Below are positions 18,361 through 58,873 of a DNA stretch of 64,000 nt, piece by piece. The stretch covers positions 83,110 through 147,109 of the forward strand of contig CAKNFP010000003.1 of assembly GCA_930633525.1 (NCBI GenBank). Reading direction: 5' to 3'. A program made the translations under genes and the position numbers. The notes beneath the pieces were generated by a model. That model did no database searches, was not told where the DNA came from, and saw only the letters and a list, made by a program, of their open reading frames with translations. This DNA is from Hyphomicrobiales bacterium (GTDB lineage: Bacteria > Pseudomonadota > Alphaproteobacteria > Rhizobiales > Beijerinckiaceae). Every line of letters starts with the position of its first letter. The stretch's first letter is position 1.

Positions 18361-19086
18361 TCAGCGGATGATCTTCTGGCGGATAGCCTCGCCGATGAGG
18401 TGGGCCCGGTTCGTGACGTCGAGCCGCTGTCGTGCCGACAGCAGGTGCTTTGCGACAGTCGGGGGAGAGATGCCCAGGATCACCGAAATCTCCCAGTCCG
18501 TTTTTCCTTCGGAAGCCCACAGAATGCACTCCCGCTCACGCGGTGTTACCATGCGTTCCATGTCCTTAGGCTTGTGGCGCAACCGAAGGAGGTGACCAAT
18601 CGCGAAATTGGCGGCGAAAGCGAGCTCGGCGAGTGCGTCGGGATTCAGATCCGCGTGACAAGCTCCAAATGAGACCGCAGCCAAGAGGCCTCCGACGAGA
18701 TGGATTGGTATGACGTAGCCGGTTCTCAGCCCGAACGCGGCCGCCTCGCCTCCTACCAACTTCACGTCCTCACGCCGCGTCGCGGCTGCATAGGATTCGT
18801 CCCAAGTAAACGGATGTCTCTTGCGCTGGAGATGACGCACGACCGGATCACGCAATGCGTAGTGATTCTTGTTGTAGCGTTCGGCCCAGCCCTCGGGAAA
18901 TTCTTGGAAGAGCACATGAGAAGCAATGTCACGGGGCTTTATCGTCGCGCTCGGAACATGGCCGGCAAATACCCATCTGAATCCCGAGGCAGCCGCCTGT
19001 CTGAGCAAGAGCTGCTGGACCGCCGCCTCGTTGTCGGAGTCCTCGATGGACTTTATGAAATTCCAAGCATTAGAGGTGACGAACAT
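18361..19086 (-). CDS. LuxR-type receptor/regulator 1 (no LuxI nearby)
   Basis: A 241-residue quorum-sensing type regulator. The autoinducer-binding domain (residues ~30-165) keeps the expected aromatic/acid set: FPEGWAERYNKNHYALRDPVV and HPFTWDESY. The C-terminal LuxR HTH is VTPRERECILWASEGKTDWE then ISVILGISPPTVAKHL. It ends 12 bases from the relaxase stop, convergent. It is closely related to the receptor at 58124-58873. No synthase gene is seen in the window, so it may be a solo or use a host signal. Confidence 0.9.
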   Translation of the reverse strand: MFVTSNAWNFIKSIEDSDNEAAVQQLLLRQAAASGFRWVFAGHVPSATIKPRDIASHVLFQEFPEGWAERYNKNHYALRDPVVRHLQRKRHPFTWDESYAAATRREDVKLVGGEAAAFGLRTGYVIPIHLVGGLLAAVSFGACHADLNPDALAELAFAANFAIGHLLRLRHKPKDMERMVTPRERECILWASEGKTDWEISVILGISPPTVAKHLLSARQRLDVTNRAHLIGEAIRQKIIR

Positions 19087-19265
19087 TCCTCATGGATCCC
19101 GCCATCATTGCGTGGGCACGCGACGCTTTTGCCAAGCCATATCGCCAAGGGCGCTGAATACGGTTGTCTCGGCGAGCAGACAAAGCATGTTCCTCAGGTC
19201 GAGATTTTTTCCGGTTGGTCCCGACAGGTTCGAATGTTGGGCCATCGTCAGGTTTGTCGCGAAGT

Positions 19266-19553
19266 CTAATCGCCGGGCCGACGCAACTTTGGCGGCAATG
19301 GTCGTGTGCCGAAATCAACCGTAGTGTGTTGAACGATTTGCCCCGTCCGATTGACCGCGAGGCGGAGCCGGCGGTTCAGATAGAAGAAACTCAGACGGTA
19401 TTGGCCCTCGTGATCGTCGACTCCGCGTTCGCACAAGCTCGTAATTGCTTGGCTGCGCATCAAGTCTGGGAGATCGGCCGCTGAAACGTTCAGCAATTTG
19501 CCCAGCAATTGCGCGTCGACCAGGATATCGCCATCAGTAATTTCAACACGCAT
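19266..19553 (-). CDS. DUF6522-like protein
   Basis: A 95-residue protein: GDILVDAQLLGKLLNVSAADLP, then ITSLCERGVDDHEGQYRLSFFY and NRRLRLAVNRTG. This fits the DUF6522 pattern as I remember it (a small protein often near NO/denitrification genes). A single conserved Cys sits in SLCERG. It follows the small FPASD protein by 11 bases on the same strand, so both probably share the NsrR-box promoter at 19769-19791. Confidence 0.72.
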   Translation of the reverse strand: MRVEITDGDILVDAQLLGKLLNVSAADLPDLMRSQAITSLCERGVDDHEGQYRLSFFYLNRRLRLAVNRTGQIVQHTTVDFGTRPLPPKLRRPGD

Positions 19554-19564
19554 GATACTGATCC

Positions 19565-19744
19565 TTATCGCTTCGGAGCTACCAGATCGCGGCGGGGACG
19601 GCTAATCCAGCTTGGAAGATCGCTGGCGGGGAAAGAGTCCCACGAAGCTTGCGAGACGATATCCGATTTCAGTTCACCGGGAGGAACAGCCCGGTCGGTC
19701 ACGGGCGGAACGCCAACGTCCGACTTCACCATCGCGGCCATCAT
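19565..19744 (-). CDS. Small protein with SFPASDLPSW motif
   Basis: A 59-residue protein; the C-terminal SWDSFPASDLPSWISRPR belongs to a widespread type of tiny proteobacterial protein carrying an FPASDPP-like motif, function unknown. Two adjacent ATGs (19744 and 19741) follow AGGAGG (19753-19748); the second has the better spacing. First gene downstream (minus strand) of an NsrR box. Confidence 0.65.
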   Translation of the reverse strand: MMAAMVKSDVGVPPVTDRAVPPGELKSDIVSQASWDSFPASDLPSWISRPRRDLVAPKR

Positions 19745-19768
19745 GCACCTCCTTGCCAATCGCACTAA

Positions 19769-19791
19769 AAGATATATTCTGGATGTATGTT
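19769..19791. promoter_or_regulatory. NsrR-type box 1 (divergent promoters)
   Basis: 23-bp imperfect palindrome with arms AAGATATATTC and GGATGTATGTT around a central T, close to the NsrR consensus arms AAGATGYATTT / AAATRCATCTT. It lies between the minus-strand FPASD gene and the plus-strand 4-TM pseudogene. Confidence 0.65.
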
Positions 19792-19814
19792 AATCTGCCT
19801 GATGGAAGATTGCA

Positions 19815-20277
19815 ATGACAAACCACGCCGAGAGTCGCATCATTGACGTTGTCGCTCTTGTGATTGTGGTGCTGTGGATTGGCCTGCTCGCCGGCGTGTC
19901 GTTCCTGGCGACGCCCGCCAAATTCCTCGCGCCTAGCCTGATGTTACCCGTGGCCCTCGACGTCGGCCGTCACACTTTTGCGATCTTCAACAAAATGGAA
20001 TGGCTACTGGCGCTCGCCGCGCTGCTTGTTGTTCTGCTTTCCCGGCCGCGGAGTGCAATCGCAAATGCCTGCTGTCCTCGTCGCGCTCCTCGTCGTGCTC
20101 CAAGCGGCGTGGTTGCTGCCCGTGCTCGATCGACGCGTCGGGTTGATCATCGCCGGTCTCCAGCCGCCGGCGTCCAACCTGCACAATGTCTATATCGGCA
20201 TCGAAGTGGCAAAGCTGCTTGGGCTCATTGTCGTCAGCTTCGTGATCGGCCGACGCCTCGCCTACCGATGTTGTTGA
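19815..20277 (+). pseudogene. 4-TM membrane protein, frameshifted
   Basis: Two reading frames together give one plausible membrane protein. Frame one starts at ATG 19815 and encodes VVALVIVVLWIGLLAGVSFLA and MEWLLALAALLVVLLSRPR; the second frame picks up near 20040-20070 and continues with MPAVLVALLVVLQAAWLLPVL and GLIVVSFVIGRRLAYRCC to a stop at 20277. A one-base indel around the RPRSAIA/GRGVQSQ junction explains it. It might be a sequencing error. It lies just downstream of NsrR box 1. Function unknown. Confidence 0.7.
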
Positions 20278-20292
20278 AAGCCGCGGTGGATC

Positions 20293-20601
20293 TCAGGAGG
20301 TGGCGCCACCTTCCGCCTTCCGGTAGAACTCGATGTAGATCCGTCCCGCCTCGGTGAAGGTGACATGATGGGGAATTTCAGCCTCGATCACGATCGTCTC
20401 GCCGGCGCGTGCCCGCCGCTCGCCCCGGTAAGGCGCCTCGAGTTGAAAGAGCACCTCACCCTCAAGGACATGCAGCAATCCCCATGTGCCGGCTTTCGTC
20501 GAATGCGCGGACTGAAGACGGGCAGGCAGCGTCTCGGAAGTAAAATCCGGCGAGCGCCCGTAAGCTTCAAAACCGACCGGTATTTGCAAGGGAATCGTCA
20601 T
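20293..20601 (-). CDS. YeaR/TehB-like (DUF1971) cupin protein
   Basis: A 102-residue single-domain cupin: PVGFEAYGRSPDFTSETLPARL, GTWGLLHVLEGEVLFQLE, and IPHHVTFTEAGRIYIEFYR. DUF1971 includes E. coli YeaR, a nitrate/NO-induced, NsrR-repressed protein, which fits this neighbourhood. Last gene of the long minus-strand operon that begins at 24314. A metal site is likely from the cupin His residues, but the ligand is unknown. Confidence 0.82.
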   Translation of the reverse strand: MTIPLQIPVGFEAYGRSPDFTSETLPARLQSAHSTKAGTWGLLHVLEGEVLFQLEAPYRGERRARAGETIVIEAEIPHHVTFTEAGRIYIEFYRKAEGGATS

Positions 20602-20649
20602 CTTACTGCCACTCCGAGCGTCGCTTTGCTTGCTTTGAACCGCGCCTCG

Positions 20650-20934
20650 TTACGCGGCGCCCTGTCGCTCTGTTGCAACCCACTTCAGAATGGTCTGCAC
20701 GGCCGTCAATCCAGGATCATGCGCCTTGCGGATAACCGTGAGCATCTGGAACCACAGATCATCGTCGGCGCTATCGATAAATGCCCGGACTGCTCCGGCG
20801 ACAAAGTCCGCGGTCGCCATCGATGCGTCGGCCGCACGCATCTCGATGGCAATCGCCAGATCGGGGTCCAGCGTATCCAGCACTTGTGCAGCCAGTTCCG
20901 GCCGATCCAGTTGAGCAATGAGGGCTCCGAGCAT
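20650..20934 (-). CDS. Conserved hypothetical, NO-operon member
   Basis: A 94-residue acidic, mostly helical protein (MLGALIAQLDRPELAAQVLD..., DDDLWFQMLTVIRKA) without a motif I can name. Start ATG 20934 follows CTGAAGGAACGCAA. It lies inside the putative NsrR-controlled operon, 49 bases upstream of the YeaR-like gene. Confidence 0.7.
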   Translation of the reverse strand: MLGALIAQLDRPELAAQVLDTLDPDLAIAIEMRAADASMATADFVAGAVRAFIDSADDDLWFQMLTVIRKAHDPGLTAVQTILKWVATERQGAA

Positions 20935-20999
20935 TTGCGTTCCTTCAGCCGATGGGCGGCTATATTTAGCGCCAAACTCATTCGATGCCTGACTGATGA

Positions 21000-21146
21000 T
21001 TACGTGAAGATCATCACAGCTACCATCCCGATGACGATCAGGAAAAGCCCGCCAATCAACATCGGCAGGAGCGTGGCCGCCGAAGCCGTCTCCGTGTCCT
21101 GCTCCTCGCGACGCCGGTTCTGTTCGTCGCCGTTGTGGTCAGCCAT
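21000..21146 (-). CDS. Small single-TM protein
   Basis: A 48-residue protein: charged N-terminus (DHNGDEQNRRREEQDTETAS) then one membrane helix LLPMLIGGLFLIVIGMVAVMIF. ATG 21146 follows AAAGAGGACGGG. It overlaps the end of the upstream gene by eight bases, so co-translation is likely. Possible small accessory subunit of the 12-TM protein in the same operon; this is inference. Confidence 0.68.
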   Translation of the reverse strand: MADHNGDEQNRRREEQDTETASAATLLPMLIGGLFLIVIGMVAVMIFT

Positions 21147-21405
21147 CCCGTCCTCTTTCCGCGCCGCTTCGGGTTCCGACGTCACCCGTCATCGGACTCA
21201 GCAGATGCAGCAATCCGTTGAACTTACCCCATCGCCCCGGATTCTCCTGGCGCAATGCCGCGCAGGCGCGTGCTGCGAGGTGGCATGCTGCTTCGGACTG
21301 ACCTGCGGCAGCGAGGGCCTGAAGGCTCGCGCGCAGAATCTCGCACAGCTCATCGTCTATCGACGAGGAAGCATTCTCGGCTTCCGTTCGACTATCATGG
21401 CTCAC
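21139..21405 (-). CDS. Small hypothetical protein
   Basis: An 88-residue protein; I start at GTG 21405, overlapping the TAG stop of the upstream gene and preceded by GGAGAGGG. The centre (ELCEILRASLQALAAAGQSEAACHLAARACAALR) is helical and TPR-like; the tail GRWGKFNGLLHLLSPMTG is conserved-looking. Function unknown; operon context is NO response. Confidence 0.65.
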   Translation of the reverse strand: MSHDSRTEAENASSSIDDELCEILRASLQALAAAGQSEAACHLAARACAALRQENPGRWGKFNGLLHLLSPMTGDVGTRSGAERGRDG

Positions 21406-22040
21406 TATCCCTCTCCATCGGAGATGCCGAGGTGGCGCCTCGCCTCTGGGCTCATCATCTCCGGGGTCCATGATGGCTCATAGGTGAGCTTCACCTCGAC
21501 AAATTCGATTCCACTGACCGACCATGCTGCGTCCCGCGCGCCATCCTTGAGATAGTTTGTTGCCGGACAGCCGCGTGTCGTCGTTGTCATGGTGATATTG
21601 GCGACGCGGCCATCTTCGATCGCGATATCGTAGACGAGGCCGAGGTCGACTATATTGTAGCCAAGCTCTGGATCGATCACGAGCCGCAGCGCTTGCTTGA
21701 CAGTTGCGGCGATACTCTGCGTTTGCGCCGAGCCCATGTCCTCGCTGGTGCCGGCGGGATCGAGAACGATCGGCGCCCCCGACATGAAATGCTCCATGAT
21801 GACACCGAGCAGCGCGGGCTTCAGATGTTGCCAGTCGCCGCCGCTTTTCGTGATGGTAATGGAGTCGGCCCCAAAGGAGAGCGCCGTAACGCCGTCGACA
21901 TTAAACAGCCTGACGGCAAGCGGGGATCGGGCCGCCGCCTTCCGATCGGGGATTTGCAGCGTTCCTTGCGCCATGACCTGGCGGCCAGGTAGGAATTTGA
22001 GGCTTGCCGGGTCTGCCGTCGCTTCGGTCTGGATGAACAT
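21405..22040 (-). CDS. NifU_N-DUF59 fusion protein, Fe-S assembly type
   Basis: A 211-residue two-domain protein. Residues 1-90 look like a Nfu/NifU N-terminal scaffold domain (FIQTEATADPASLKFLPGR, FNVDGVTALSFGADSITITK); residues ~110-205 are a DUF59/MIP18-PaaD domain (ALRLVIDPELGYNIVDLGLV, ITMTTTTRGCPATNYL). The single conserved Cys is in TTRGCPA. These domains act in Fe-S cluster assembly or repair. In an NsrR-controlled operon it may repair NO-damaged clusters or mature a partner. Confidence 0.85.
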   Translation of the reverse strand: MFIQTEATADPASLKFLPGRQVMAQGTLQIPDRKAAARSPLAVRLFNVDGVTALSFGADSITITKSGGDWQHLKPALLGVIMEHFMSGAPIVLDPAGTSEDMGSAQTQSIAATVKQALRLVIDPELGYNIVDLGLVYDIAIEDGRVANITMTTTTRGCPATNYLKDGARDAAWSVSGIEFVEVKLTYEPSWTPEMMSPEARRHLGISDGEG

Positions 22041-22069
22041 GTCGCTGTCTCCCGAGAAATCCTTGGGGG

Positions 22070-22615
22070 TCAGGCGGCGGCAGGCGGCGGTGCGCCGCGA
22101 GATCCCCCGATACGCACGAGGATCTTGTAGGTGATGCCGTCGGGCTCAAAACCTCCGTTCCACGCGTGCCCGCGCTTGGCGAGCTCTGGAAGAAGAAATA
22201 TCGGCTCGCGGCAAAGCAGCGCCGACAGCACTTCGCCGGGCGCCATCTCCTCCGTCGCCGCCAGTATCCTGACCATCGGCTCCGGCGGATCGAGGTCACG
22301 ATTGTCCATGTGCCGAAGCGGTTCCGGCCACGCGCCGTCGTTTCGGATTCCTGGTGCACCCGCTTCCGGTTGCGGGCGCGCGGCAACCGACGGCGAGAAC
22401 AGAACTTCCCAGTCGCCATCGCCCAGTTCTCGCATTTCGTGTTCAAACCCCTTGGAGCCGAGTACACTCAGCAAGGGCACCGGCTTGAATGTCGCAAGCA
22501 GGCGCAGGCCTTCGCCAGGTTTGAGTGCGTTCACAGCGTTCATGATCTCGCCGAACGGCTCGCCGCCGGCACGCAGGGTCGGACGTACGTCGACGTCAAT
22601 AAAAGATGTCGTCAT
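22070..22615 (-). CDS. Double DUF2249 protein
   Basis: A 181-residue protein with two DUF2249 modules. Module one: IDVDVRPTLRAGGEPFGEIM then LRLLATFKPVPLLSVLGSKG; module two: LDPPEPMVRILAATEEMAPG then LLPELAKRGHAWNGGFEPDG. DUF2249 is a TusA-like fold common beside NO-related genes. ATG 22615 is chosen (ACAGGAGGTAATC ahead); eight upstream in-frame residues are unlikely to be translated. It follows the 12-TM gene by 16 bases. Confidence 0.85.
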   Translation of the reverse strand: MTTSFIDVDVRPTLRAGGEPFGEIMNAVNALKPGEGLRLLATFKPVPLLSVLGSKGFEHEMRELGDGDWEVLFSPSVAARPQPEAGAPGIRNDGAWPEPLRHMDNRDLDPPEPMVRILAATEEMAPGEVLSALLCREPIFLLPELAKRGHAWNGGFEPDGITYKILVRIGGSRGAPPPAAA

Positions 22616-22631
22616 GATTACCTCCTGTGAT

Positions 22632-24044
22632 CTAGTCATGTTGCGCCGAGCAAAGCAGCAACCGCGGCACGCTTACGCCTGGCGGCAGGCGTAGAGTGAC
22701 GTTGACATCCAGCAACTGGCGGATGCGCACCAATTGAACGATGATGCCGAGGCTGCCGATGAGCATCAGGCCAGCGCAAGCCTGAAACACCGTTGGTATT
22801 TCGAGCAACAATGTAGCGGTCGCGCCCCAAACGCCGAGAAAATAGAGCAGGAACCACCGGATAGCACGGCGTTCGACGGCAAGGTCCTGTACACGCGGCG
22901 TTGCCGTCTTGCCGAGGACCGGCCCGTAACATTCGAGCCAGGTCAGGAAGGCTGCGATTTTGTAAAGCTTGGCCAATCCCAGCCCTGACAGCCATCCGAA
23001 CGCGACCAGAAAAACAACGGCAGCAGCGTGCTGTGCCAGGATGCCGAAACCGGCCAGCGCGGCGATCAAGATCACGCTCGCGGCGAGGCCGGCCATCGCA
23101 AAACCCGCCATCCGGCTGTTCAATTCGATCACACGGCGTTTTCGCGCGCGATAGAGGTGCAGGATGTCAGTGCCGTAAAGAAGAAGCGCACACAGTCCGA
23201 GCAAACCGGCCGCGACCAAGATCAGCGTCAGACTTGCCGCGAGACAGATCGCCGTCACGCCGCCGCCGACGGCAACTGCAAGCGACGCCGTCCCGCAATA
23301 AAAGCCTGCACGCGAACGCCGGCCACCGGGTTCGGGGGCGAGCATGAACATCGCGAGAAGGCGATATGCAACCCCCATGGCGGTGAACGTCAACCAGCCG
23401 CCGAGACCGGCGATTGCATGAAGCGGTACGCCGCTGACGACAATGTCGACAAGATACGGATTGTCGGTAACCCCGCCGAGCACCAGACTGAAAATGATCC
23501 CGAGCGTGACGGTCACAGCAATGCTGCAAAGACCAACGGCGACGAAGCACGCAGGGAGCGGCAATGGACGCGCAGCCCAGAGCGTGCGACCCAGATTCCA
23601 CAAGACAAGGCCGAAGCCGATGGCCAGTAGCGTGGCAGCAGTCGGAAGGAAAGCAAACGCAATGGAGACAGTACCGCCCATCTGCAAGAAGCCGAGAAGA
23701 AGCGCCACAACTCCCGCTACGAGGCACAGGAGGGTCGGGAGTGGCAGCGCGTCGCTGTAGAGGGGACGGGCCACCAGCACCGGGACGAACTGGAACAGCG
23801 CTCCACACATGAGCAGACTGAGCCAGCCCAACGCGACCAGATGCACGAGGACGAGTGTCTGAGCAGATTCCACTGGTGCGTTCGGATAACCGTAACCGAT
23901 CGCCATCAAGAGCTCGGCGGCGACGAGCGCAATCAGCGCAGCCGCGAAGTAAGACATGGTCCAGCGAGAGAGCGTTGCGCCAGGCACGATCGCATTCCTT
24001 CCGTGCGGAGCGATGCCGGCCGCGGAACCTGCCGGCATCGACAT
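22632..24044 (-). CDS. 12-TM membrane protein, NnrS / oxidase-subunit-I-like
   Basis: A 470-residue polytopic protein with about twelve membrane helices. Histidines sit in membrane segments at 68 (LVLVHLVALGWL), 209 (VPLHAIAGLGGWL) and 339 (LAQHAAAVVFLVAFGW), each followed by a GW pair, plus His 296 at a helix end. This recalls NnrS and haem-copper oxidase subunit I relatives. A haem/copper-binding NO-handling role is inferred from motif and NsrR context; the exact family is uncertain. Start ATG 24044 follows GAGGTTCCCGG. Confidence 0.78.
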   Translation of the reverse strand: MSMPAGSAAGIAPHGRNAIVPGATLSRWTMSYFAAALIALVAAELLMAIGYGYPNAPVESAQTLVLVHLVALGWLSLLMCGALFQFVPVLVARPLYSDALPLPTLLCLVAGVVALLLGFLQMGGTVSIAFAFLPTAATLLAIGFGLVLWNLGRTLWAARPLPLPACFVAVGLCSIAVTVTLGIIFSLVLGGVTDNPYLVDIVVSGVPLHAIAGLGGWLTFTAMGVAYRLLAMFMLAPEPGGRRSRAGFYCGTASLAVAVGGGVTAICLAASLTLILVAAGLLGLCALLLYGTDILHLYRARKRRVIELNSRMAGFAMAGLAASVILIAALAGFGILAQHAAAVVFLVAFGWLSGLGLAKLYKIAAFLTWLECYGPVLGKTATPRVQDLAVERRAIRWFLLYFLGVWGATATLLLEIPTVFQACAGLMLIGSLGIIVQLVRIRQLLDVNVTLRLPPGVSVPRLLLCSAQHD

Positions 24045-24053
24045 CCGGGAACC

Positions 24054-24314
24054 TCAAGCTGCTTTCAGCAAGCGTCCAATCTCGACCCGCCATACCTGTG
24101 GACCCTGTTCCAGATAGGTCCAGGAGAACTGCTGCGGATGCTCAGCCTCAAGCTGGTAGTAGAGCGGCTTTGGATCGTGATCATTGACGAGGACAAATGA
24201 CCCGCCCGGTGCGAGCTGACCCACAAGCTCGAAGATTTTTGCGTGCCGCTGCGCTGGAACGAGGCTTCGAACATCGATTTCGCTGACGGCTGGGGCCGTT
24301 TGTGTCTGAGGCAT
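24054..24314 (-). CDS. DUF2249 protein
   Basis: An 86-residue single DUF2249 domain: IDVRSLVPAQRHAKIFELVG, FVLVNDHDPKPLYYQLEAEH and WTYLEQGPQVWRVEIGR. The HDPKPL and YLEQGP motifs are diagnostic. First gene of the minus-strand operon that runs to 20293, with an NsrR box 114 bp upstream. Its closest relative in the window is the gene at 25720. Confidence 0.88.
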   Translation of the reverse strand: MPQTQTAPAVSEIDVRSLVPAQRHAKIFELVGQLAPGGSFVLVNDHDPKPLYYQLEAEHPQQFSWTYLEQGPQVWRVEIGRLLKAA

Positions 24315-24427
24315 GATGGAACTGCTCCTTTGATCGCATCAGCGCCATGCGCGAGACCGGAACCGCGACTGGATGCTGCCCGTCGCCCCCATAACGCGGC
24401 GCTTCGGGGGTATACGTTCGCGCCTAA

Positions 24428-24450
24428 AACATATATTGTCAATGTATCTT
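24428..24450. promoter_or_regulatory. NsrR-type box 2
   Basis: 23-bp palindrome, arms AACATATATTG and CAATGTATCTT around T. Upstream of the DUF2249-led minus-strand operon. Confidence 0.7.
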
Positions 24451-24493
24451 TTTGTGGCGGGTCGGATTCTTGGTGATCGACGCATTATTGCAA

Positions 24494-24516
24494 AAGATAT
24501 CTTGTGCGGTCATCTT
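24494..24516. promoter_or_regulatory. Weaker NsrR-type box 3, ahead of nsrR
   Basis: Arms AAGATATCTTG and GCGGTCATCTT keep the outer AAGAT...ATCTT at the correct 23-bp span but the inner bases deviate. Position 39 bp before the nsrR start suggests autoregulation. Confidence 0.45.
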
Positions 24517-24554
24517 TGGTCATTCGGATTCGTCGGAGTGTAGGAAATAAGCGA

Positions 24555-24983
24555 ATGCGGTTGACCAATTTCTCCGACTACGCGCTGCGCGTGCTGATGT
24601 ACGCGGCGGCGCGGGAGGATCGGCTGATCACGATTGAGGAGACGGCAGAGGTTTACGATATTTCTCGTGCCCATCTGATGAAGGTCGTCAATCAGCTAAC
24701 TCGTGCAGGATTCCTAAAGGCCGTGCGTGGCCGGTCAGGTGGGCTGGCGCTCGCCAAGCGCCCAGGACGCATCAATCTCGGCGATGTTTTGCGCACAACA
24801 GAGCCGGATTTCGCGCTGGTCGAATGCTTCACCAAAGATAATCGCTGTGTGCTGACGCCACGCTGCCGTTTACGGGGCGTGCTCCATGAAGCTCTCGCGG
24901 CGTTCATCGGAACGCTCGACCGCTACACGCTCGCCGACCTCATGCTCAGTCCCGACGACTTCGGTCTCCAACCGGCTGCCTGA
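24555..24983 (+). CDS. nsrR: NsrR, Rrf2-family NO-sensing repressor
   Basis: A 142-residue Rrf2 regulator. N-terminal winged helix: MRLTNFSDYALRVLMYAA and ISRAHLMKVVNQLTRAGFL. The Fe-S ligands characteristic of NsrR are Cys 91, 98 and 104 (ECFTKDNRCVLTPRCRL). NO destroys the cluster and lifts repression. ATG 24555 follows TAGGAAATAAGCGA. It sits between the two operons whose promoters carry matching boxes. Confidence 0.94.
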   Translation: MRLTNFSDYALRVLMYAAAREDRLITIEETAEVYDISRAHLMKVVNQLTRAGFLKAVRGRSGGLALAKRPGRINLGDVLRTTEPDFALVECFTKDNRCVLTPRCRLRGVLHEALAAFIGTLDRYTLADLMLSPDDFGLQPAA

Positions 24984-25168
24984 GTCGACTGAACTCCTCT
25001 GCGACAAGTTCCATAAGACTGGGCGGCACCTTGACGATCGGTTTGCAGCTCGCGACACAACACGCGTGCGCGAGATCATGACTTTCGTTCGTTCAGGGCT
25101 CCTGCCGAGTCGATCTGGAAACACGTCCTCTGCGACCGCGACGATTTTGCCCTTGCGTCTCCTGCTAA

Positions 25169-25191
25169 AAGATATATTCTAAATGCATCTT
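25169..25191. promoter_or_regulatory. NsrR-type box 4 (best match)
   Basis: Arms AAGATATATTC and AAATGCATCTT around T; the right arm matches the consensus exactly. Located 14 bp before the start codon of the first gene of the plus-strand NO operon, next to its AGGAGG. Confidence 0.75.
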
Positions 25192-25204
25192 ATAGGAGGC
25201 GGCT

Positions 25205-25723
25205 ATGCTGCTTGAGATTGAGGCGGTCGCGGATAGCGCGCTTGAGGGCGCGACGCTGAGCCAGGAGACATCGCTGCAGAGCGCGCCAAGGGAAAGTTCA
25301 CGCAGAAGCGCCACGCCTCCTTCTTTCAGGATGACGGTTCCAGAGCTGGCATTTTTCATAGTGGCGGCGTTTCGACGTCATCCGCATATTAACAATGTCC
25401 TGACGCATATCTCCGGCGGCAGTTGGAACCGTATCGAGGAGGCGCTGCGGGTGATCGTCGATCCGGATGCGAGCCCTTGCGATCTCTCTCCACTAGCGCG
25501 CAACATCATCGACTTGATATGCGCAGATCGCGGTGTAACCGGCCGAATTGTCAAACCCTACTATCGGGAGCTGCTGGTTGGGGCGCTGGGCGAAACGGTG
25601 GCAAGGCATTTGATCACTTACGTCACCTGCCTCTTCGTCGAAAGCGAAGCAGCGGCGTGGCAGATCGCGCCGCCGCGCCCCGCAATCGCGGTAACATCTT
25701 CGAGCAAAGGTGTGGATGGATGA
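25205..25723 (+). CDS. Conserved hypothetical, first gene of plus-strand NO operon
   Basis: A 172-residue soluble protein. Segments such as ELAFFIVAAFRRHPHINNVL and LSPLARNIIDLICADRGVTG look folded and conserved, but I do not recognise the family. ATG 25205 follows ATAGGAGGCGGCT directly after NsrR box 4. The stop overlaps the next gene by four bases. Confidence 0.75.
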   Translation: MLLEIEAVADSALEGATLSQETSLQSAPRESSRRSATPPSFRMTVPELAFFIVAAFRRHPHINNVLTHISGGSWNRIEEALRVIVDPDASPCDLSPLARNIIDLICADRGVTGRIVKPYYRELLVGALGETVARHLITYVTCLFVESEAAAWQIAPPRPAIAVTSSSKGVDG

Positions 25724-25980
25724 GAACGATTTCCGCCGCAACGGAACGTGTCATCGACGTCAAGGACATCGATCCGCGGCATCGCCACACGATTATTGAG
25801 CAATTGTTCGCCCATCTCGCGCCGGGCGCAAGCCTTCAACTCGTCGTAGATCACGATCCGAAGCCGTTACGTTTTCAGCTTGAGGCGAAACATGGAGCGC
25901 ACTGTCAATGGATCTATCTTGAACAAGGTCCAGACGTCTGGCGGGTGCGCCTGCAACTGGGAGCGAGCCCGGGAGACTGA
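25720..25980 (+). CDS. DUF2249 protein
   Basis: An 86-residue DUF2249 domain (IDVKDIDPRHRHTIIEQLFA, VVDHDPKPLRFQLEAKHG, WIYLEQGPDVWRVRLQ), clearly paralogous to the gene at 24054-24314. ATG 25720 overlaps the preceding stop (ATGA). Together with the double-domain protein the window holds four DUF2249 modules. Confidence 0.88.
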   Translation: MRTISAATERVIDVKDIDPRHRHTIIEQLFAHLAPGASLQLVVDHDPKPLRFQLEAKHGAHCQWIYLEQGPDVWRVRLQLGASPGD

Positions 25981-25982
25981 TA

Positions 25983-26213
25983 ATGCTTGGATTTCTCACG
26001 AGACAATCGAGCATCTCATCACGGAACGACGTTGTCGCGAACGATCCACATGGGACCGCGCTTTCCTCGAGGCGCGCAGAGCGTCTTGAGATGCTGTTTG
26101 CCGCTGCCAGCCTCGGGATCGGGGAATGCCCGTCATGGATCATCCAAGCTCTGGAAGCTGAGGAGAGAGCGGATCGGGAAAAGTACGCCGAGGAAAGGAG
26201 CAGATCATGTTGA
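25983..26213 (+). CDS. Small hypothetical protein
   Basis: A 76-residue protein starting two bases after the DUF2249 stop. LEMLFAAASLGIGECPSWIIQALEAEERAD is helical with one Cys. The end overlaps the next start. Operon position is the main reason to call it. Confidence 0.6.
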   Translation: MLGFLTRQSSISSRNDVVANDPHGTALSSRRAERLEMLFAAASLGIGECPSWIIQALEAEERADREKYAEERSRSC

Positions 26214-26446
26214 GCAATTCCCACTATTTCGTCCGTCCGAAGGACGACGCCGAACGCGTCTATCTCGAATCGCTGGTTCGCGAGGACTACGATCAATGCC
26301 ATCCTGGTGAGACGTTCGACGACATGAAGCGACGCATCCCATTCTCCAAGGAGGACCGAGGACTGTACCGCGACTGGCTCGCAGTCGCTGCGGGGCGCGA
26401 CGCGGCGCTCACCTCTGAACACCTACCGTTGATCGCCGCCGAATGA
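26207..26446 (+). CDS. Small hypothetical protein
   Basis: A 79-residue protein (SHYFVRPKDDAERVYLESLV, DYDQCHPGETFDDMKRRIPF, SKEDRGLYRDWLAVAA) with ATG 26207 behind AAAGGAGCAGATC. It looks conserved and soluble; the family is not recognised. Overlaps the haemoglobin start. Confidence 0.7.
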   Translation: MLSNSHYFVRPKDDAERVYLESLVREDYDQCHPGETFDDMKRRIPFSKEDRGLYRDWLAVAAGRDAALTSEHLPLIAAE

Positions 26447-26991
26447 CTGGAACGGTACCCAGCAATCCGCAGCCGCCGGTGGCGGGAGCTTCCGGCGATG
26501 AGCCTGCGGGGGCAGCGACACATGAAGGTGGTCCAGCGCGGCGTGCACGCATCACACGGGAGATCATGGAGAGGACCGGTATCGATGAAGCGATGATCGA
26601 ACGTCTCGTGCGTAGGTTCTACCGGCAGGTTCAGGCCGATCCGCTGCTTGGGCCTGTCTTCGCCCCGCGAATCGCCGACTGGGAAAAACATATCGCCAAA
26701 CTCTGCGCATTCTGGTCTTCGGTTGCGTTGATGTCCGGCCGATACCACGGCCAGCCGATGCAAGTGCACGTCGATCTTCCAGTCGACGCCACTCATTTCG
26801 ATCGCTGGATCGCTTTATTCGAAAACACCGCTAACGAGATTTGTCCGCCAACCGCGGCACAACACTTCATCGAGCGTGCGCGGCGCATCGCCGATAGCAT
26901 CGAACTGGCCATGGCGGGTCGCAACGGAAAAATCCAGAGTCCGCGCTTCGCTGCTACGGTAGCCGGCAACAACCCAGCCAAATCGACTTAG
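26443..26991 (+). CDS. Group III truncated haemoglobin
   Basis: A 182-residue protein with a ~40-residue low-complexity N-terminal extension, then a trHb3 fold: MIERLVRRFYRQVQADPLLG, ADWEKHIAKLCAFWSSVALM, GRYHGQPMQVHVDLPVDATH with the proximal His in DATHFDRW. Truncated globins detoxify NO by dioxygenation or bind it; this agrees with NsrR control. ATG 26443 overlaps the previous stop. Extension is longer than typical and may be disordered. Confidence 0.9.
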   Translation: MTGTVPSNPQPPVAGASGDEPAGAATHEGGPARRARITREIMERTGIDEAMIERLVRRFYRQVQADPLLGPVFAPRIADWEKHIAKLCAFWSSVALMSGRYHGQPMQVHVDLPVDATHFDRWIALFENTANEICPPTAAQHFIERARRIADSIELAMAGRNGKIQSPRFAATVAGNNPAKST

Positions 26992-27036
26992 AGGTTACCC
27001 AGGATCTGATCGGCTTCCTCAATCAGGAGACATTCC

Positions 27037-27372: not shown

Positions 27373-27407
27373 AACAACACCAGTCGCACGCCTTGAAGGA
27401 GACATCC

Positions 27408-27941: not shown

Positions 27942-28032
27942 CCAATCCGGTCGAACTTCGGGCCGCTGTCCGACGTGGTGTATCGAGGAAGACAGCTGCT
28001 GGCGTATACCGTGATCAGGCGTCGTCGATCGT

Positions 28033-28678: not shown

Positions 28679-28868
28679 TGCCAGGTCGTCCCCCCGGTGC
28701 GGAAGGACATTGCTCCTTCTAAAGGGGCATCCCTCAGAAGCACGCAGGCGTGTGAGAATTGACGGTCGTCAGGGCGGCTCCCTTTCGTCACGGGCAAACT
28801 ACCGGATGGGTGGCCGGCAGAGGAGGCGACCGCCGCGCAGGTCCAAGACGGGTGCATCGGGAGCTAGC

Positions 28869-33159: not shown

Positions 33160-33190
33160 GAGATCCTTCGCCAAATTGGGAGGGATAGCA

Positions 33191-34737: not shown

Positions 34738-34803
34738 CAGGCGTCCCGTCTGACCGCAAGCGGAAAGGACGAACCCGATCGTAGAGCTATCATGGGGGTA
34801 TTC

Positions 34804-50088: not shown

Positions 50089-50925
50089 ATGATAAAGGTC
50101 TTGGTTGTCAGAGTTGACGGAACCAGTGGCGACGAATTCCGCCTCGCAGCCGCAGAAAGTTTGGCGAAACTCTTCGAAGCGCATGTTGTTGGCCTGATCA
50201 TCAATGTTTTGCCCGAACCGATCATCGTAGAGACCATGACCAGCGTAACAAACTGGTCAGAGAGCCTTGAACACGCACGCGCTCAAGGACGGCAATTCGA
50301 AGAGCGGACGAAGGAGCGGCTGAAGAGCCTCGCTCCATCGTCGGAGGTGCGTCGTATCGATGCATATTCCCATGAGCGGGCGTTCCTCACCGCCCGGGAA
50401 TGTCGGAGCGCAGACGTACTCGTCGGTCTTCGACTGAGCGACGATGATGATACAATTGAACTGCATGACGTGATCGAGGAGACGCTATTCGAGGCGGGCT
50501 GACACATCTTTCTCGTGGCCGACCAGAAGACCTTCGATGGAGGCTTCGAGCATTCAGTTGTCGCCTGGAACGGGAGCCGCGAGGCAACGCGTGCAGTGGC
50601 GGAGGCCTTGCCGTATCTGAAAAAATCAAAGGCGGTAACTGTTCTGCGCATAGGCGCCGAAACAGAATCAATCCTCTCGGCTGTGCAGGATGACAGGCTG
50701 GTCGCATACCTCCGGAAACATGGCATTAGCGCTTTGCTGGAGCGAGTTCCGCACAAGGGGTTCCAGGACATTGCGACAGTGCTCATCGATGAAGTGGTCG
50801 CCCGTAAGGGCGATCTGCTTGTGATGGGTGGTTACGGTCATTCGCGCCTGCGCGAATGGTTGCTCGGAGGCACTACATACAGGTTACTTCGTAAGTGCCC
50901 GATCTCGCTTGTGATGGCGCACTGA
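50089..50925 (+). pseudogene. Tandem universal stress protein split by in-frame TGA
   Basis: From ATG 50089 (MIKVLVVRVDGTSGDEF) one UspA-like domain runs to TGA 50500-50502. The same frame then continues without interruption: HIFLVADQKTFDGG, then a second domain VVAWNGSREATRAVAEALPY ending GDLLVMGGYGHSRLREWLLG and stop at 50925. The TGA stands where an Arg (CGA) would complete FEAGRHIFLV. A CGA-to-TGA change thus splits a two-domain protein. The second half could be re-initiated from GTG 50515 without its own ribosome-binding site. Confidence 0.82.
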
Positions 50926-51817: not shown

Positions 51818-54049
<2,232 letters not shown>

Positions 54050-54663: not shown

Positions 54664-55311
54664 CTATGCGCGCGATTCAGAATAGTGCCTCTTCTCCGCG
54701 TCAGACGTAGATGCCCCCGATGACTTTCGCAGCTTCAGTCCGAGCGTGATGAGGACGACCCCAAGGATCGCGGCATAGATGCCGAGCAGCCAGCCCAGTG
54801 CGAGGAAGGTCTCAAACGGCCGCGTTACCAGAAGCCAAATGACGAGTATGCTGAGCGCGACAGAAAGAAGGCCGCTGATAAACAGCCAAACCTCACCCTT
54901 AATCTCGTTTCTCAAGCGAATTGCAGCAGCTATTTCAAACACACCGGAGAGCATCGACCAGAACGCAATGCTCACCCATAGAAACGTTGCAAGCACCAGC
55001 GTGGCGACAAATGGCGATACCACCACGATAATGCCGGTCAAGACGCCAAGCGCGCCGCTGAAGGCAAGCCATCCCCATCGTTCCTCCTTACGGATCCGTC
55101 GAATGGCGGAGACGAGTTCGAACGCGCCGTCGACGAAGGAGTACGCACCGAATATGAGCGTCAGCGCGAGCAGAGAGTCTGCCGGCATTACGAAAGCGAT
55201 TACGGCGATGATTAAAGCCAAAGCTCCGCGGAGTACAAAGACCCACCAGTTTTTTTGCAACGTGCAGATTAGAACTCCTGTTGCAGGCAGGGGAAGCGTA
55301 TCTTGGTTCAT
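54664..55311 (-). CDS. hdeD: HdeD-family acid-resistance membrane protein
   Basis: A 215-residue protein with six membrane helices in three hairpins: WWVFVLRGALALIIAVIAFV, LTLIFGAYSFVDGAFELVSA, GWLAFSGALGVLTGIIVVVS and ALGWLLGIYAAILGVVLITL. The G-x3-G and FGAY..DG motifs are typical of HdeD. ATG 55311 follows AAAAGGAAATCGAC. HdeD and YfdX, its neighbour, form the conserved hdeD-yfdX pair of tLST/TLQ loci. Confidence 0.92.
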   Translation of the reverse strand: MNQDTLPLPATGVLICTLQKNWWVFVLRGALALIIAVIAFVMPADSLLALTLIFGAYSFVDGAFELVSAIRRIRKEERWGWLAFSGALGVLTGIIVVVSPFVATLVLATFLWVSIAFWSMLSGVFEIAAAIRLRNEIKGEVWLFISGLLSVALSILVIWLLVTRPFETFLALGWLLGIYAAILGVVLITLGLKLRKSSGASTSDAEKRHYSESRA

Positions 55312-55643
55312 GTCGATTTCCTTTTTTGGATCGTCCTGAGGTTTCCCCGGTGGGTTTAGCCAAGGCTCTGCGCGGGGTTGCCGCATCCGGGGGGAGTGGG
55401 AGCCGCTTGGCGGGCCGTATTGCCGCTAGTTCCAGAGTATATCCCGCGGATGGGTCCGCTCGGTCCTAGCATGCAGCTCCGCCACCTCCTCCGCTTCGAG
55501 CAGCGTTTGCCGCTCGAAGCTATTGGCTTCTTGTTCCACCCGGAGCCAGAGTCAGAGCGAAGTGCTGCTCAAGCTGCTGGCGGACGAGCCGTGTACGAAT
55601 TTGCGGAGGGGTGGAGGTCCCGGTCTGCCGAGCCGACGTTGCA
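55312..55643. other. Region between hdeD and yfdX
   Basis: Contains the hdeD leader. Short frames have no family-like sequence. No gene seen. Confidence 0.4.
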
Positions 55644-56561
55644 TCAAAACAGGTCTGAGACCTGCTTCTTGATCCTGTCGAACCAGCCCTTGCCGCTCTT
55701 CCCACCACTTGACTTCTGTTCGATCTCTTTGATCTGCTCGAATATCGGCTCGAAGTCCGCCTTCTTGCCGTAACCCAAAGCCTCCGCCATTCTGATCTGC
55801 TTCCGGGCTTCGTCGAGTTGCGCGGCGAGCGATTTGTTGCCCTCTTCCGAGCGCTTATCGTCTTCCGCGAGCTTTTCAGCATCTTTTAAAAGAACCTGCG
55901 CGCGCAGTACGGGCAGTGGCACGGCCACCTCCGTAATGACCAGCGTGTTCAACGCCGCCTGAAGGGCGTCTTTTGCTTCATCCACCTTGCTCTTGGCGAT
56001 GAGGCCGGCCGCGGACTTGATCGCCGTAGGATAGGCAGCGAGTGGCAAATTCGTGGTCTGGAACACCACCTCGCTGGCGAGGTTACTGACCAACGGGCGT
56101 GCCTTTTGAACTTCTCCGTCGCCGAGCAGTCTCCGCGCCTCCTTGATCGCGTCTCTTACGGCATTGGGATCCGCGTATAGATCGCGGACGACGACCCCGG
56201 TATCCACTGGCGCTAGTGCGAGCTTGGGGTCCCGCGCCAGGATAAGTTCGAGCTTCCCGGTAGCGACTTCAAGCGCCTCGAGGGCCTCTTGTGTCTTCTT
56301 GTCGCCGAGCAGCGCCAATGCCTTCTTCGTTTGGTCGAGCGCTGTCTCGGCGTCGACGACGATCTTCTTGCGTTCTTCTTCTGACCGTTTGGCGACGTCA
56401 GCATCCACTTCGGGTTGTGCTGACTTCGCCGTCGGCGATTGCTCCTGCGCCGGGTTCGCCTGAGACTGGGACTGTTCCTGCCCACGGGCTGGAACCCCAT
56501 GTGCGGCGACCAGGCTCAGCGCCGCCGCGGAAAGCAGTATACTTTTAAGATTGGTTGTCAT
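55644..56561 (-). CDS. yfdX: YfdX-family stress protein, secreted
   Basis: A 305-residue protein: signal peptide SILLSAAALSLVAAHGVPARG, a ~40-residue Gln/Ser-rich linker, then the YfdX domain (EEERKKIVVDAETALDQTKK, LALLGDKKTQEALEALEVAT, ALAPVDTGVVVRDLYADPNA). YfdX proteins are periplasmic, acid- and antibiotic-linked chaperone-like factors. ATG 56561 follows AAGGGAGATCATCA. It lies beside hdeD as in gammaproteobacterial islands. Confidence 0.92.
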   Translation of the reverse strand: MTTNLKSILLSAAALSLVAAHGVPARGQEQSQSQANPAQEQSPTAKSAQPEVDADVAKRSEEERKKIVVDAETALDQTKKALALLGDKKTQEALEALEVATGKLELILARDPKLALAPVDTGVVVRDLYADPNAVRDAIKEARRLLGDGEVQKARPLVSNLASEVVFQTTNLPLAAYPTAIKSAAGLIAKSKVDEAKDALQAALNTLVITEVAVPLPVLRAQVLLKDAEKLAEDDKRSEEGNKSLAAQLDEARKQIRMAEALGYGKKADFEPIFEQIKEIEQKSSGGKSGKGWFDRIKKQVSDLF

Positions 56562-57073
56562 TGATGATCTCCCTTGTTGCAGCGTGGTTGAATCAGCGCG
56601 GGCTCACGGTTGCACCGGCAATCGCTACGGATCTGCACATCGGCCTCAACCTGATGCGTCAGGTCCAGCTCACGGTCCCTTTCTCTTGGCGGGCAGGCGC
56701 CGCGGAGCTGTCGGCAGACAAAGAGCATTGATGGCAACTCCGCCTCCGACCGACACTGACAATCGACAGTTTTCGCGAGATACGGCGCTCGAAGCGCGGA
56801 CGGCTGTTTCCGAAGGCCCGCTCACGCGGCGTGACAGGGGGCGCTCCACGGATTGCAGCCTGCCTGCCCCTGAAGGTCGGACGTTTGTTTTCCTGCCAAG
56901 TGGCGGTTCGTCGCGAGAGCAGCTTCGTGCTGAATCTGCGTCCACATCGAAAACTGACGCCTGTCAGCGCGCGCCATCATGCCCGGCGTAGCGTGGTTAC
57001 GCCGTAAGTTGCGGAGGACCGACCAGGGGCCTCGCAGCGCGGCCATGCTCAATTGGCAGAAGGAAATAGAACA
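56562..57073. other. Gene-free stretch, divergent leader of yfdX and BON genes
   Basis: Should hold both divergent promoters. No gene is supported; no box was recognised. Confidence 0.4.
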
Positions 57074-57727
57074 ATGAGATCTGACAGTGACATCAAGCGC
57101 GACGTGGAATTCGAGCTGAAGTGGGACCCCGACATCGATGCCACCGACATCGGCGTTGCGGTCAAGTCCGGCGTCGTGACGCTCACGGGTTTCGTCCGCA
57201 GCTATCTGCAAAAGTACGAAGCAGAGCGGGCCGCAAAGCGTGTGTCCGGAGTTCTCGGGCTGGCGAACGACATCGAAGTGCGGCTTCCCACCGAGAGTCA
57301 GCGTACGGATCCAGAGCTGGCGCGCGACGCCGTTGCCGCGATCAAGACCGAGCTCCCCTACGCGCACGAAAATATCAAGGTGCTGGTGAAGACTGGCTGG
57401 GCAACGCTTGAGGGCACCGTCGAATGGGACTACCAGCGCACGCGCGCTGAACGTGCGGTCCGGGCACTGAAAGGCATAAAGGGTATCAGTAACCTGATCA
57501 CGCTGAAGCCCCGCGTCGCGCCGTCCGAAATCAAGTCGAAGATCGAGGATGCGTTCAAGCGGAGCGCCGAGATTGACGCCAATCGGATCGTTGTGACCGC
57601 AAATGGCGGCGAAGTGACGCTCACGGGCGCGGTTCGCTCGTGGGCCGAACGCCAGGAGGCCGAGCGGGCCGCCTGGCGCGCACCTGGTGTGACGAAGGTG
57701 GACAACCGCATCACCATTGCTCCCTGA
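57074..57727 (+). CDS. Triple BON-domain protein
   Basis: A 217-residue protein with three BON domains in a row, each with a conserved Gly pattern: [40 protein letters not shown] and [20 protein letters not shown]. There is no signal peptide, so it is cytoplasmic unless secreted otherwise; most BON proteins (OsmY) are periplasmic. ATG 57074 follows AGAAGGAAATAGAACA. Role: osmotic/membrane stress protection by family analogy. Confidence 0.9.
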
Positions 57728-57742
57728 CGCAATCCAATGAGT

Positions 57743-57780
57743 AAGCGGAGAGCGGCTATGCACCATCCCGCTCTCCGCTT
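57743..57780 (+). terminator. Strong hairpin after BON gene
   Basis: A perfect 13-bp stem, AAGCGGAGAGCGG (57743-57755) with CCGCTCTCCGCTT (57768-57780), 15 bases after the stop. Confidence 0.78.
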
Positions 57781-58123
57781 GTCGGAAACCTGAGTGCGAC
57801 GAAAGTGTGACAAAGCGAAGGTTCCCGGGCGCCCTCGGTAGGCTCGGTAGCAATCGCAAGCCCAGAATCTTTCCATGCAGGTGATCGACCTTCGTGGATC
57901 CCAATCACCGTGGGACATCGAGCACGACGTCCAAGGCCGGCGCCGAGGTCCCTCTGGAAACGCCCGAAGATGGACATAGCCTCCTGTCGGAGCGGGTCTG
58001 CGCGCAGCTCAAACCACGTTCTCTCGACGCGAGGTCGCACGCCTTGCCGATTTGATCGACTGAAACCGCCCTCTTGCGAGTTCCTCCATTCAGAATGGAT
58101 CGAGCTATCCCCAAGGGAGACGC
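57781..58123. other. Intergenic leader of the second LuxR gene
   Basis: No gene recognised. Candidate lux-box palindromes were not found by eye. Confidence 0.4.
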
Positions 58124-58873
58124 ATGAAAAAGGAGGAACGGAAGGTGCCCGACCGATTCAACCAAACAGTGGGCTTTATCGAAGCAGTCGAGAAAGCGCA
58201 GAGCGCGATAGAAGTCGAAGCGTGTCTACTCGCATTTGCTGCGACCCTTGGTTTCACATCTGTGTTTGGCGGCATCGTTCCGTTGTGGCCGGTCCCGCTA
58301 GACGAAATGCCAAAACGCATTTTGTTCCAGCGATTTCCGGAAGGTTGGGCGGAGCGATACAACGATAGCGGCTATGTACTACGTGACCCCATCGTCTCGC
58401 GGTTACTGTATGACCGGGCGCCGTTTGCATGGTCTGATGCCTACAGGACTGATAGAGAACGGGAGAACGTCAAACTGATAAGCGGAGAGGCGACAGAGTT
58501 CGGGCTCCGGGACGGCTACGTCGTTCCAATTCCAACGATCGAAGGTGACCTTGCCGCCGTTTCTTTCGGAGGTCCGGCGAACGCTATCGAGCCTAGCGAG
58601 GTTGCTGCGCTTAATTTCGCTGCAAGCTACGCGGTTGGGAGCTATCTCCATCACCGAATCGCACGCAGACGACTCTCCGCAGCTTTGACCCCCCGAGAGT
58701 CCGACTGTCTTTTATGGGCGGGGGAAGGAAAAACGGATTGGGAGATTTCGGTTATTCTAGGCATCTCCCGCGCAACGGTTTTGAAGCACGTTGCCGCCGC
58801 GCGCGAGAAGCTCGGAGCGGTAAATAAGGCGCACGCCATTGCGACGGCGATCCGAATCAAACTCCTCGCGTAA
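58124..58873 (+). CDS. LuxR-type receptor/regulator 2 (no LuxI nearby)
   Basis: A 249-residue LuxR protein very similar to the one at 18361: FPEGWAERYNDSGYVLRDPI, APFAWSDAYR, LTPRESDCLLWAGEGKTDWE and ISVILGISRATVLKHVA. All ligand-pocket positions normally conserved in AHL receptors are kept. Start ATG 58124 (GGGAGACGC ahead) or GTG 58145 behind AGGAGG are both plausible. It precedes the T4SS genes, which face it. Confidence 0.9.
   Translation: MKKEERKVPDRFNQTVGFIEAVEKAQSAIEVEACLLAFAATLGFTSVFGGIVPLWPVPLDEMPKRILFQRFPEGWAERYNDSGYVLRDPIVSRLLYDRAPFAWSDAYRTDRERENVKLISGEATEFGLRDGYVVPIPTIEGDLAAVSFGGPANAIEPSEVAALNFAASYAVGSYLHHRIARRRLSAALTPRESDCLLWAGEGKTDWEISVILGISRATVLKHVAAAREKLGAVNKAHAIATAIRIKLLA

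Follow-up and report, generated by a model that had tools for sequence, protein, structure and literature searches.

A plasmid-borne protein-quality-control and redox island of Hyphomicrobiales, most likely a ClpG-less cousin of the transmissible locus of stress tolerance

Introduction

The transmissible locus of stress tolerance (tLST), also called locus of heat resistance (LHR) or transmissible locus for protein quality control (TLQ), is described in PMC8290217 as having a dna-hsp20-clpG core, and the same article already notes that Alphaproteobacteria have tLST genes. In addition, PMC2529317 reports two rpoH genes and two dnaK-grpE clusters for the Phenylobacterium zucineum plasmid. Here, we describe a stress island carried by a plasmid of a Hyphomicrobiales bacterium (GCA_930633525.1; six contigs, 7.16 Mb). 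The chromosomal FtsH of this bacterium shows 97% identity with that of Chelatococcus asaccharovorans, the closest named protein among those listed, so that a Chelatococcus-like host is likely. The window, i.e. the whole stretch of 64,000 nucleotides that was analysed, corresponds to the terminal 64 kb of contig CAKNFP010000003.1 (147,109 bases; hereafter C3), and positions are those of the window unless stated otherwise. A preliminary description of this DNA presented positions 18361-58873 as the alphaproteobacterial version of tLST. We consider it likely that the locus is rather an accessory island for protein quality control and redox functions, shared horizontally by Hyphomicrobiales, and a tLST cousin devoid of ClpG, whose ftsH and part of whose hsp20 triplet share their ancestry with tLST and which gained an hdeD-yfdX pair of tLST type.

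Extent and recurrence of the island

C3 is a repABC-type plasmid, encoding RepC and a ctRNA_p42d antisense RNA (9249-9292). As pointed out previously, the block is flanked by a relaxase gene on its left (15491-18349) and by type IV secretion system (T4SS) genes on its right (59020-63507); the island thus appears to sit on a mobile element. However, the conserved unit is shorter than the one first delimited: it extends from about 28688 to 57727, i.e. from grpE to the gene of a BON-domain protein, and its gene order is kept in Hyphomicrobiales. The G+C content is 0.60 in the island versus 0.66 in the rep/relaxase region and 0.64 in the T4SS region.

The NDUFS4-like protein of the island served as query in a pattern scan that covered each GTDB species by one genome. 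This yielded 40 stretches, from which 25 loci were confirmed; furthermore, 107 plasmid records match this protein, 27 of them with a coverage of at least 80%. The best of the 25 loci lies on contig RXJA01000108.1 (152,997 bases) of the metagenome-assembled genome (MAG) AWTP1-3, recorded as Hyphomicrobiales, which encodes a 100% identical NDUFS4-like protein. This sister contig matches the window at 98.5% DNA identity over 28688-54003 (25.3 kb) and at 98.9% over 54668-64000, whereas identity is only 75-85% in the rep/relaxase region and just 137 bases (28441-28577) match in the block spanning 18.4-28.7 kb. Therefore, either the cargo was exchanged between backbones or the backbone was swapped. 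Since the sister contig is also continuous over the end and start of C3 (its positions 149062|149063 correspond to 147109|1 of C3), C3 is circular.

More distant copies are found in two other Hyphomicrobiales, Propylenella binzhouense and Prosthecomicrobium pneumaticum, in which, respectively, 26 and 25 of the 31 window open reading frames (ORFs) from GrpE to BON, a set including some short ORFs that are doubtful as genes, are in the same order, with identities of 55-91%. Both islands lack orf37081, KaiB, FAD3, HdeD and YfdX, and that of Prosthecomicrobium also lacks orf29384; YfdX has no match anywhere in these two genomes. The absence of the cluster elsewhere, which the preliminary description had named as counter-evidence, is thus not seen.

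The nitric oxide (NO) response genes counted as part of the unit in that description are indeed present (20293-28234; DUF1971, Nfu/FeS, DUF2249, a 470-aa membrane protein, Rrf2, globin and DUF2478), but these seven proteins have no match in the sister stretches of MAG AWTP1-3, Propylenella or Prosthecomicrobium, and the nitric-oxide/Fe-S genes of 18361-28687 are a separate cargo, outside the conserved unit. Their proximity, together with a Crp/Fnr-type regulator (41230-41907, reverse strand) and a PAS histidine kinase (38106-39224, forward strand) within the island, could evoke a FixK/FNR-type regulon of microoxia or nitric oxide in which the chaperones would be passengers. The lack of these seven proteins in the sister stretches argues against this explanation, which we rejected as improbable because FNR-like boxes are not clearly enriched (three found versus 0.96 expected, three being reached in 9 of 100 shuffles). 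The whole cargo is bracketed by two autoinducer-binding LuxR regulators (18361-19086 and 58124-58873) showing 48.7% identity with each other.

A recurrent core gene set with a RNA thermometer

The island includes a core gene set, hereafter the module, which recurs in Hyphomicrobiales and Rhodobacterales as ROSE-hsp20-hsp20-NDUFS4-like-omega-like-SPW-(degQ)-ftsH and probably forms one operon. All its members are on the forward strand. The ROSE RNA thermometer (31936-32042; Rfam RF00435, 53.2 bits for a gathering threshold of 45) occurs once in the window and covers the start of hsp20_1 (32030-32515, the start being probably the ATG at 32036). It is followed by hsp20_2 (32612-33118), the gene of a two-domain NDUFS4-like protein (33176-33928), the gene of an omega-like RNA polymerase subunit paralogue (33938-34246), the gene of an SPW-repeat membrane protein (34331-34696), a degQ/degP relic (34798-35167) and ftsH (35185-37050). 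The thermometer and the omega-like gene had been missed previously. Conversely, the degP relic proposed at that time is real: portions near both ends remain and the middle is lost, the two pieces (34798-35007 and 35021-35167) being 63% and 69% identical to near-terminal parts of the Propylenella DegQ, with a best score of 87.4 bits versus a maximum of 25.4 across 100 shuffles. At the same position, the Propylenella and Prosthecomicrobium islands carry a full-length-looking degQ, whose product is 68-69% identical to the Neorhizobium protein.

Within 5 kb of the NDUFS4-like gene, hsp20_1 is found in 24 of the 25 loci, omega and SPW in 21 each, hsp20_2 in 15, FtsH in 11 and DegQ in 8, these counts being conditional on loci found via NDUFS4, several of which are near-identical and so not independent. 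A count of 16/25 for the hsp20 triplet was discarded, being distorted by cross-hits to hsp20_2. ROSE lies at the start of hsp20_1 in 24/25 loci (the exception being L032) and in both named rhizobial plasmids that were scanned. Ten loci (L038 and L040-L048) have ClpG in their flank. Two of these are confirmed by name as Rhodobacterales, an order to which we presume that the others belong as well. In these ten loci, which also include antiporter, glycosyltransferase and amylo-glucosidase-like genes, the core operon (ROSE-hsp20, NDUFS4-like, omega and SPW) is joined to a ClpG locus.

Relationship with tLST

The absence of ClpG/ClpK stated in the preliminary description holds for the plasmid and also for the genome, whose nearest relatives of ClpG are only 42-53% identical and are encoded on contig C1; their frames, of 918 aa and 843 aa, were interpreted as ClpB and ClpA. 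With respect to the tLST core, hsp20 is present and clpG absent. PsiE and HtpX were not found on C3 either, and degQ is represented by the relic of the window and by a DegQ-like ORF elsewhere on C3.

The sister contig of MAG AWTP1-3 carries, at 13.4-28.4 kb and about 85 kb from its copy of the island, a second stress locus that is a ClpG-bearing alphaproteobacterial tLST (alpha-tLST). Its order is degP, psiE, hsp20 triplet, MarR, ftsH, ClpG (72% identical to E. coli ClpK), a sigma-70-like ORF, HdeD, a hypothetical ORF, NDUFS4, rhomboid, ClpP, TrxC and antiporter, i.e. the order of Paracoccus yeei pYEE3 minus YfdX and plus degP, 15 compared genes being 57-94% identical. Since the island coexists with a separate ClpG-bearing tLST on one contig, it is a cousin of tLST and not, as first proposed, its alphaproteobacterial version. 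Besides, a ClpK search of 13 genomes (including our own, L036 being excluded) gave near-full-length matches at 71% identity or more in six of them, one with an internal stop; hence, the module and ClpG often occur in one cell.

Trees nevertheless bear out part of the tLST membership initially attributed to the block. In the FtsH tree (33 rows: 13 from the module, 8 ClpG-adjacent/tLST, 4 further and 8 chromosomal), an accessory clade of 25 is split from the eight chromosomal copies at 100/100, and includes a module group (86/55) and a tLST group (87/64). The island FtsH is thus placed with tLST FtsH in one accessory clade, the module copies making a group of their own there, and we do not propose a closer, sister relationship. 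In the Hsp20 tree (37 rows), the first two members of the triplet A/B/C (43996-44436, 44449-44832 and 44840-45340, forward strand) group with their alpha-tLST counterparts, A with A at 93/88 and B with B at 100/98. These phylogenies support a shared descent with tLST for FtsH and two of the three triplet Hsp20s. They also bear on another explanation, namely that stress genes of the host chromosome were recruited and came together by chance, for which a precedent could be the P. zucineum plasmid, credited in PMC2529317 with 17 of the 33 chaperones of this bacterium. The window FtsH shows 48% identity with the host copy versus 84-90% with module copies of four other genomes, which refutes this scenario for FtsH, and the gene order is kept across genera, so that it appears highly improbable for the island as a whole.

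HdeD and YfdX are the most tLST-like pair of the island (54664-56561, reverse strand; hdeD-like DUF308 gene at 54664-55386 and yfdX at 55644-56561). In a tree of 34 rows, 24 of which were chosen by similarity to the query and whose root is arbitrary, YfdX belongs with E. coli tLST YfdX1 to a 14-row set (99/99) that excludes E. coli YfdX2 as well as the YfdX of P. yeei, Roseovarius and Sphingomonas. As for FtsH, the grouping with host copies that had been named as a possible refutation is not observed; YfdX was found in only 2 of 385 genomes of the class, one of them being our own, and was therefore rejected as a marker. Among the 25 records listed out of 325, HdeD is 62-71% identical to copies from alphaproteobacterial plasmids, 54-57% to gammaproteobacterial HdeD_GI rows and 53% to Pseudomonas fragi. 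Since neither the Propylenella nor the Prosthecomicrobium island has this pair, its location between dnaK and the BON gene seems to result from an insertion. Other genes depart from tLST: TrxC is 40-47% identical to tLST thioredoxins, and the antiporter (39327-41201, forward strand), formerly called KefB-type, does belong to the CPA2 family but is YbaL-type, with 29-30% identity to tLST KefB and NCBIfam scores of 590 bits for YbaL (cut-off 700), 238 for KefC and 199 for KefB, all under their cut-offs.

Could the island derive from a tLST through loss of ClpG and rearrangement in Alphaproteobacteria? The position of FtsH in the clade shared with tLST, the homology of triplet A and B, the YfdX1-type YfdX and the proximity of HdeD to that of alphaproteobacterial plasmids would fit, as would the PsiE-like ORFs adjoining grpE in the three sister copies (MAG, 49%; Prosthecomicrobium, 49%; Propylenella, 32%) and the ClpG that Propylenella has on another contig. 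However, two other genera hold the island without ClpG, HdeD and YfdX, a different ClpG-bearing tLST stands on the same contig as one copy of it, and its antiporter and TrxC are distant from those of tLST. Moreover, a Megablast of 18361-43360 retrieved 19 records, all of them alphaproteobacterial plasmids and none enterobacterial; over this range, the DNA conservation above 80% with archetypal tLST that would be expected of a tLST is not observed. Such a loss is thus unlikely in our opinion. We view the island as a cousin that lacks ClpG: it is not a tLST and, most likely, not what remains of one either.

Besides the dependence among loci mentioned above, several observations weigh against this interpretation. 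The support of the two FtsH groups is moderate and the tree leaves the fork above both open, and triplet C falls in an unresolved set with hsp20_2-like rows of the 37-row tree. C3 shares further parts with the sister contig, at C3:17.2-44.0 kb (in pieces, 91-98%) and C3:1-3.9 kb (98.8%); both plasmids are therefore mosaics, and the MAG contig could be mis-assembled. A strict alphaproteobacterial RpoH promoter pattern has no match in the window and, therefore, we make no claim about sigma-32. Lastly, in an even sample of the class, the second domain of the NDUFS4-like protein is found in 1 of 385 genomes, which is our own, and its distribution is therefore drawn from the pattern scan and the plasmid records.

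The omega-like and NDUFS4-like proteins

The omega-like protein scores 32.8 bits with Pfam Rpb6 (cut-off 26). Alignment of 15 such proteins reveals an invariant R-F-A-L core, and the corresponding profile retrieves 23 sequences from PDB, all omega (best 1.3e-11). Its AlphaFold model (mean predicted local distance difference test, pLDDT, of 71) gives 136 Foldseek matches, of which the 50 listed are all RNA polymerase or RpoZ entries with probabilities of 0.99-1.00; among these, the best E value is 2.2e-3 and none reaches 0.001. TIGR00690 reaches 20.5 bits, below its cut-off of 23.6, which counts against RpoZ membership. In 15/15 aligned proteins, the N-terminus is MDP, MNP or MDS in place of the MARVT found in the seven chromosomal omega copies that were read, including that of our genome. 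According to the experiments reported in PMC7676912, residues 2-5 of E. coli omega contribute to the binding of the alarmone ppGpp (guanosine tetraphosphate) at site 1, and ppGpp binding is only at background level when the polymerase contains an omega without these residues, although a mutant carrying additional changes kept the ability to bind ppGpp. The plasmid protein thus appears to be an omega homologue deprived of the ppGpp-contacting N-terminal residues, mostly intact and probably under purifying selection (dN/dS, the ratio of nonsynonymous to synonymous substitution rates, is 0.05-0.41 in 9/9 chosen pairs over the first 66 codons, some dS being saturated). Evidence against a function comes from L032, L039 and L049, in which the gene seems to be disrupted, from L023, which has a truncated copy, and from L035, where no match was obtained. 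In MAG AWTP1-3, the plasmid omega-like gene was found and chromosomal rpoZ was not, which most likely reflects MAG incompleteness.

The NDUFS4-like protein has an NDUFS4 domain (about 48-125) and a second conserved domain (about 140-236) without Pfam match. Its profile matches chain Q of 8qby ('ETC complex I subunit conserved region') over positions 43-122 (1.5e-21). In four genomes that were profiled, four NDUFS4 matches reach profile position 94-95, that of our genome being located on C1, and seven, located on module/tLST contigs and C3, stop at 78-81. The AlphaFold model (mean pLDDT 60) was kept out of the fold search.

Other genes of the island and of the plasmid

The five hsp20, dnaK, grpE, ftsH, trx2, hdeD, yfdX, KaiB-like and NDUFS4-like genes listed in the preliminary description are all present. 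The left end of the island is grpE (28665-29384, forward strand; Pfam GrpE, 155 bits), whose longest-ORF start at 28665 is probably too far upstream, the match with the sister contig beginning at 28688. It is followed by genes encoding an AhpC/TSA peroxiredoxin (30514-31245, reverse strand; 87-88% in Propylenella and Prosthecomicrobium) and TrxC (31232-31861, forward strand; above the NCBIfam cut-off, 81-82% in the sister islands). Beyond ftsH, a KaiB-domain protein (37688-38032, forward strand) and, further right, a FAD-dependent monooxygenase-like protein (45918-47474, forward strand) are encoded by the window and MAG copies but not by the Propylenella and Prosthecomicrobium islands. A PAS-LuxR regulator (42101-43192, reverse strand) precedes the triplet; the five Hsp20 of the island score 48-79 bits with PF00011 (cut-off 20.8). 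The right part encodes an aldo/keto reductase and a zinc alcohol dehydrogenase (47471-49695, reverse strand), a universal stress protein (Usp; 50515-50925, forward strand), DnaK (52127-54049, forward strand; 911 bits, 88% in the Propylenella and Prosthecomicrobium islands) and, at the right end, a triple-BON-domain protein (57053-57727, forward strand; 89-91% in the sister islands).

Outside the window, C3 carries a second stress block (C3:44331-56860), which encodes an HtpG-like protein (recognized by eye), Hsp20, GroES, GroEL, a glycosyltransferase, an amylo-glucosidase-like protein, a DegQ-like ORF, SPW, an NDUFS4-like protein and two Hsp20, and which resembles a Neorhizobium petrolearium plasmid. 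In total, 8 of the 11 hsp20 matches of the genome are on C3.

Putative role of the island

The gene content allows a scenario for the expression of the island and for the stress phenotype that it might confer. Heat would melt the ROSE hairpin, allowing translation of hsp20_1 and of its downstream partners, and the five small heat-shock proteins (sHsps) would hold proteins as they unfold. Since ClpG is lacking, refolding by the plasmid DnaK/GrpE would rely on DnaJ and ClpB of the host. FtsH would clear damaged membrane proteins, while stress affecting redox state, ions and the envelope could be handled by peroxiredoxin/TrxC, Usp, the YbaL antiporter and HdeD/YfdX. As to the NDUFS4-like and omega-like proteins, they may bind complex I and RNA polymerase, respectively, tuning both in heat. 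More speculatively, the core operon might be a mobile heat programme that, in addition to chaperones and proteases, ships an alternative omega, whose modified N-terminus would leave ppGpp site 1 empty and keep polymerase assembled in heat active despite the alarmone, as well as a two-domain NDUFS4 that caps complex I. If true, the plasmid would retune host transcription and respiration under heat, which raises the question of whether RNA polymerase or complex I can have one of its subunits replaced by a mobile element in the course of a heat shock.

Whatever this role, the analysis separates ClpG-bearing tLSTs, which are present in Alphaproteobacteria, from a ClpG-less island of partly shared ancestry; a reading of gene content alone would merge them, and both can share one plasmid. 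It also brings into view a recurrent RNA-thermometer operon for which we found no name in the literature searched, which covered few subscription journals.

Comparison with known systems

The tLST/LHR/TLQ of Enterobacteriaceae and Pseudomonas, represented here by E. coli plasmids NZ_KY887595 and NZ_CP034659, share with the island sHsps, an FtsH of the accessory clade, a YfdX1-type YfdX, HdeD, a thioredoxin, a CPA2 antiporter and a plasmid location. Unlike them, the island has no ClpG/ClpK, a single YfdX, a YbaL-type antiporter and a TrxC at 47% identity, and it adds DnaK/GrpE, NDUFS4-like, omega-like and SPW proteins, peroxiredoxin, Usp, dehydrogenases and ROSE.

The alpha-tLSTs of P. yeei pYEE3, Agrobacterium pusense pAtCFBP5496 and MAG AWTP1-3 display the same A-B-C order of the hsp20 triplet as the island, together with FtsH (67-69%), HdeD (about 62%), an NDUFS4-domain gene, TrxC and an antiporter, the latter being a different one (29-30%). 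However, they also carry MarR, ClpG (annotated as AAA ATPase in pYEE3 and pAtCFBP5496), rhomboid, ClpP and PsiE, which the island does not, and DnaK and omega genes are not annotated in the tLST stretches of pYEE3 and pAtCFBP5496.

A further stress block lies on a conjugative-typed plasmid of Sphingomonas koreensis (L020, 86000-135500), with DnaK/GrpE, ClpB, TrxC, YfdX, BON, Dps, PsiE, an antiporter and pentose-phosphate genes. The P. zucineum HLK1 plasmid resembles the island by an hsp20 pair, an NDUFS4 gene, a Do protease, a peroxiredoxin, FtsH (76%), YbaL (51%) and TrxC (65%), and it also carries GroESL, but it has a different gene order, and two rpoH genes and two dnaK-grpE clusters are reported for it, as mentioned above.

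The module is also found in rhizobial plasmids. Rhizobium bangladeshense p4 carries hsp20-hsp20-NDUFS4-omega-SPW-degQ-ftsH in the order of the window core, and the N. petrolearium plasmid follows the same order without ftsH; in both of them, ROSE precedes the first hsp20 as in the window. The degQ of these rhizobial modules is annotated as a full gene, unlike the relic of the window, and the grpE-peroxiredoxin-trxC and kinase-antiporter-triplet-dnaK parts that surround the core in the window are not annotated around that of p4.

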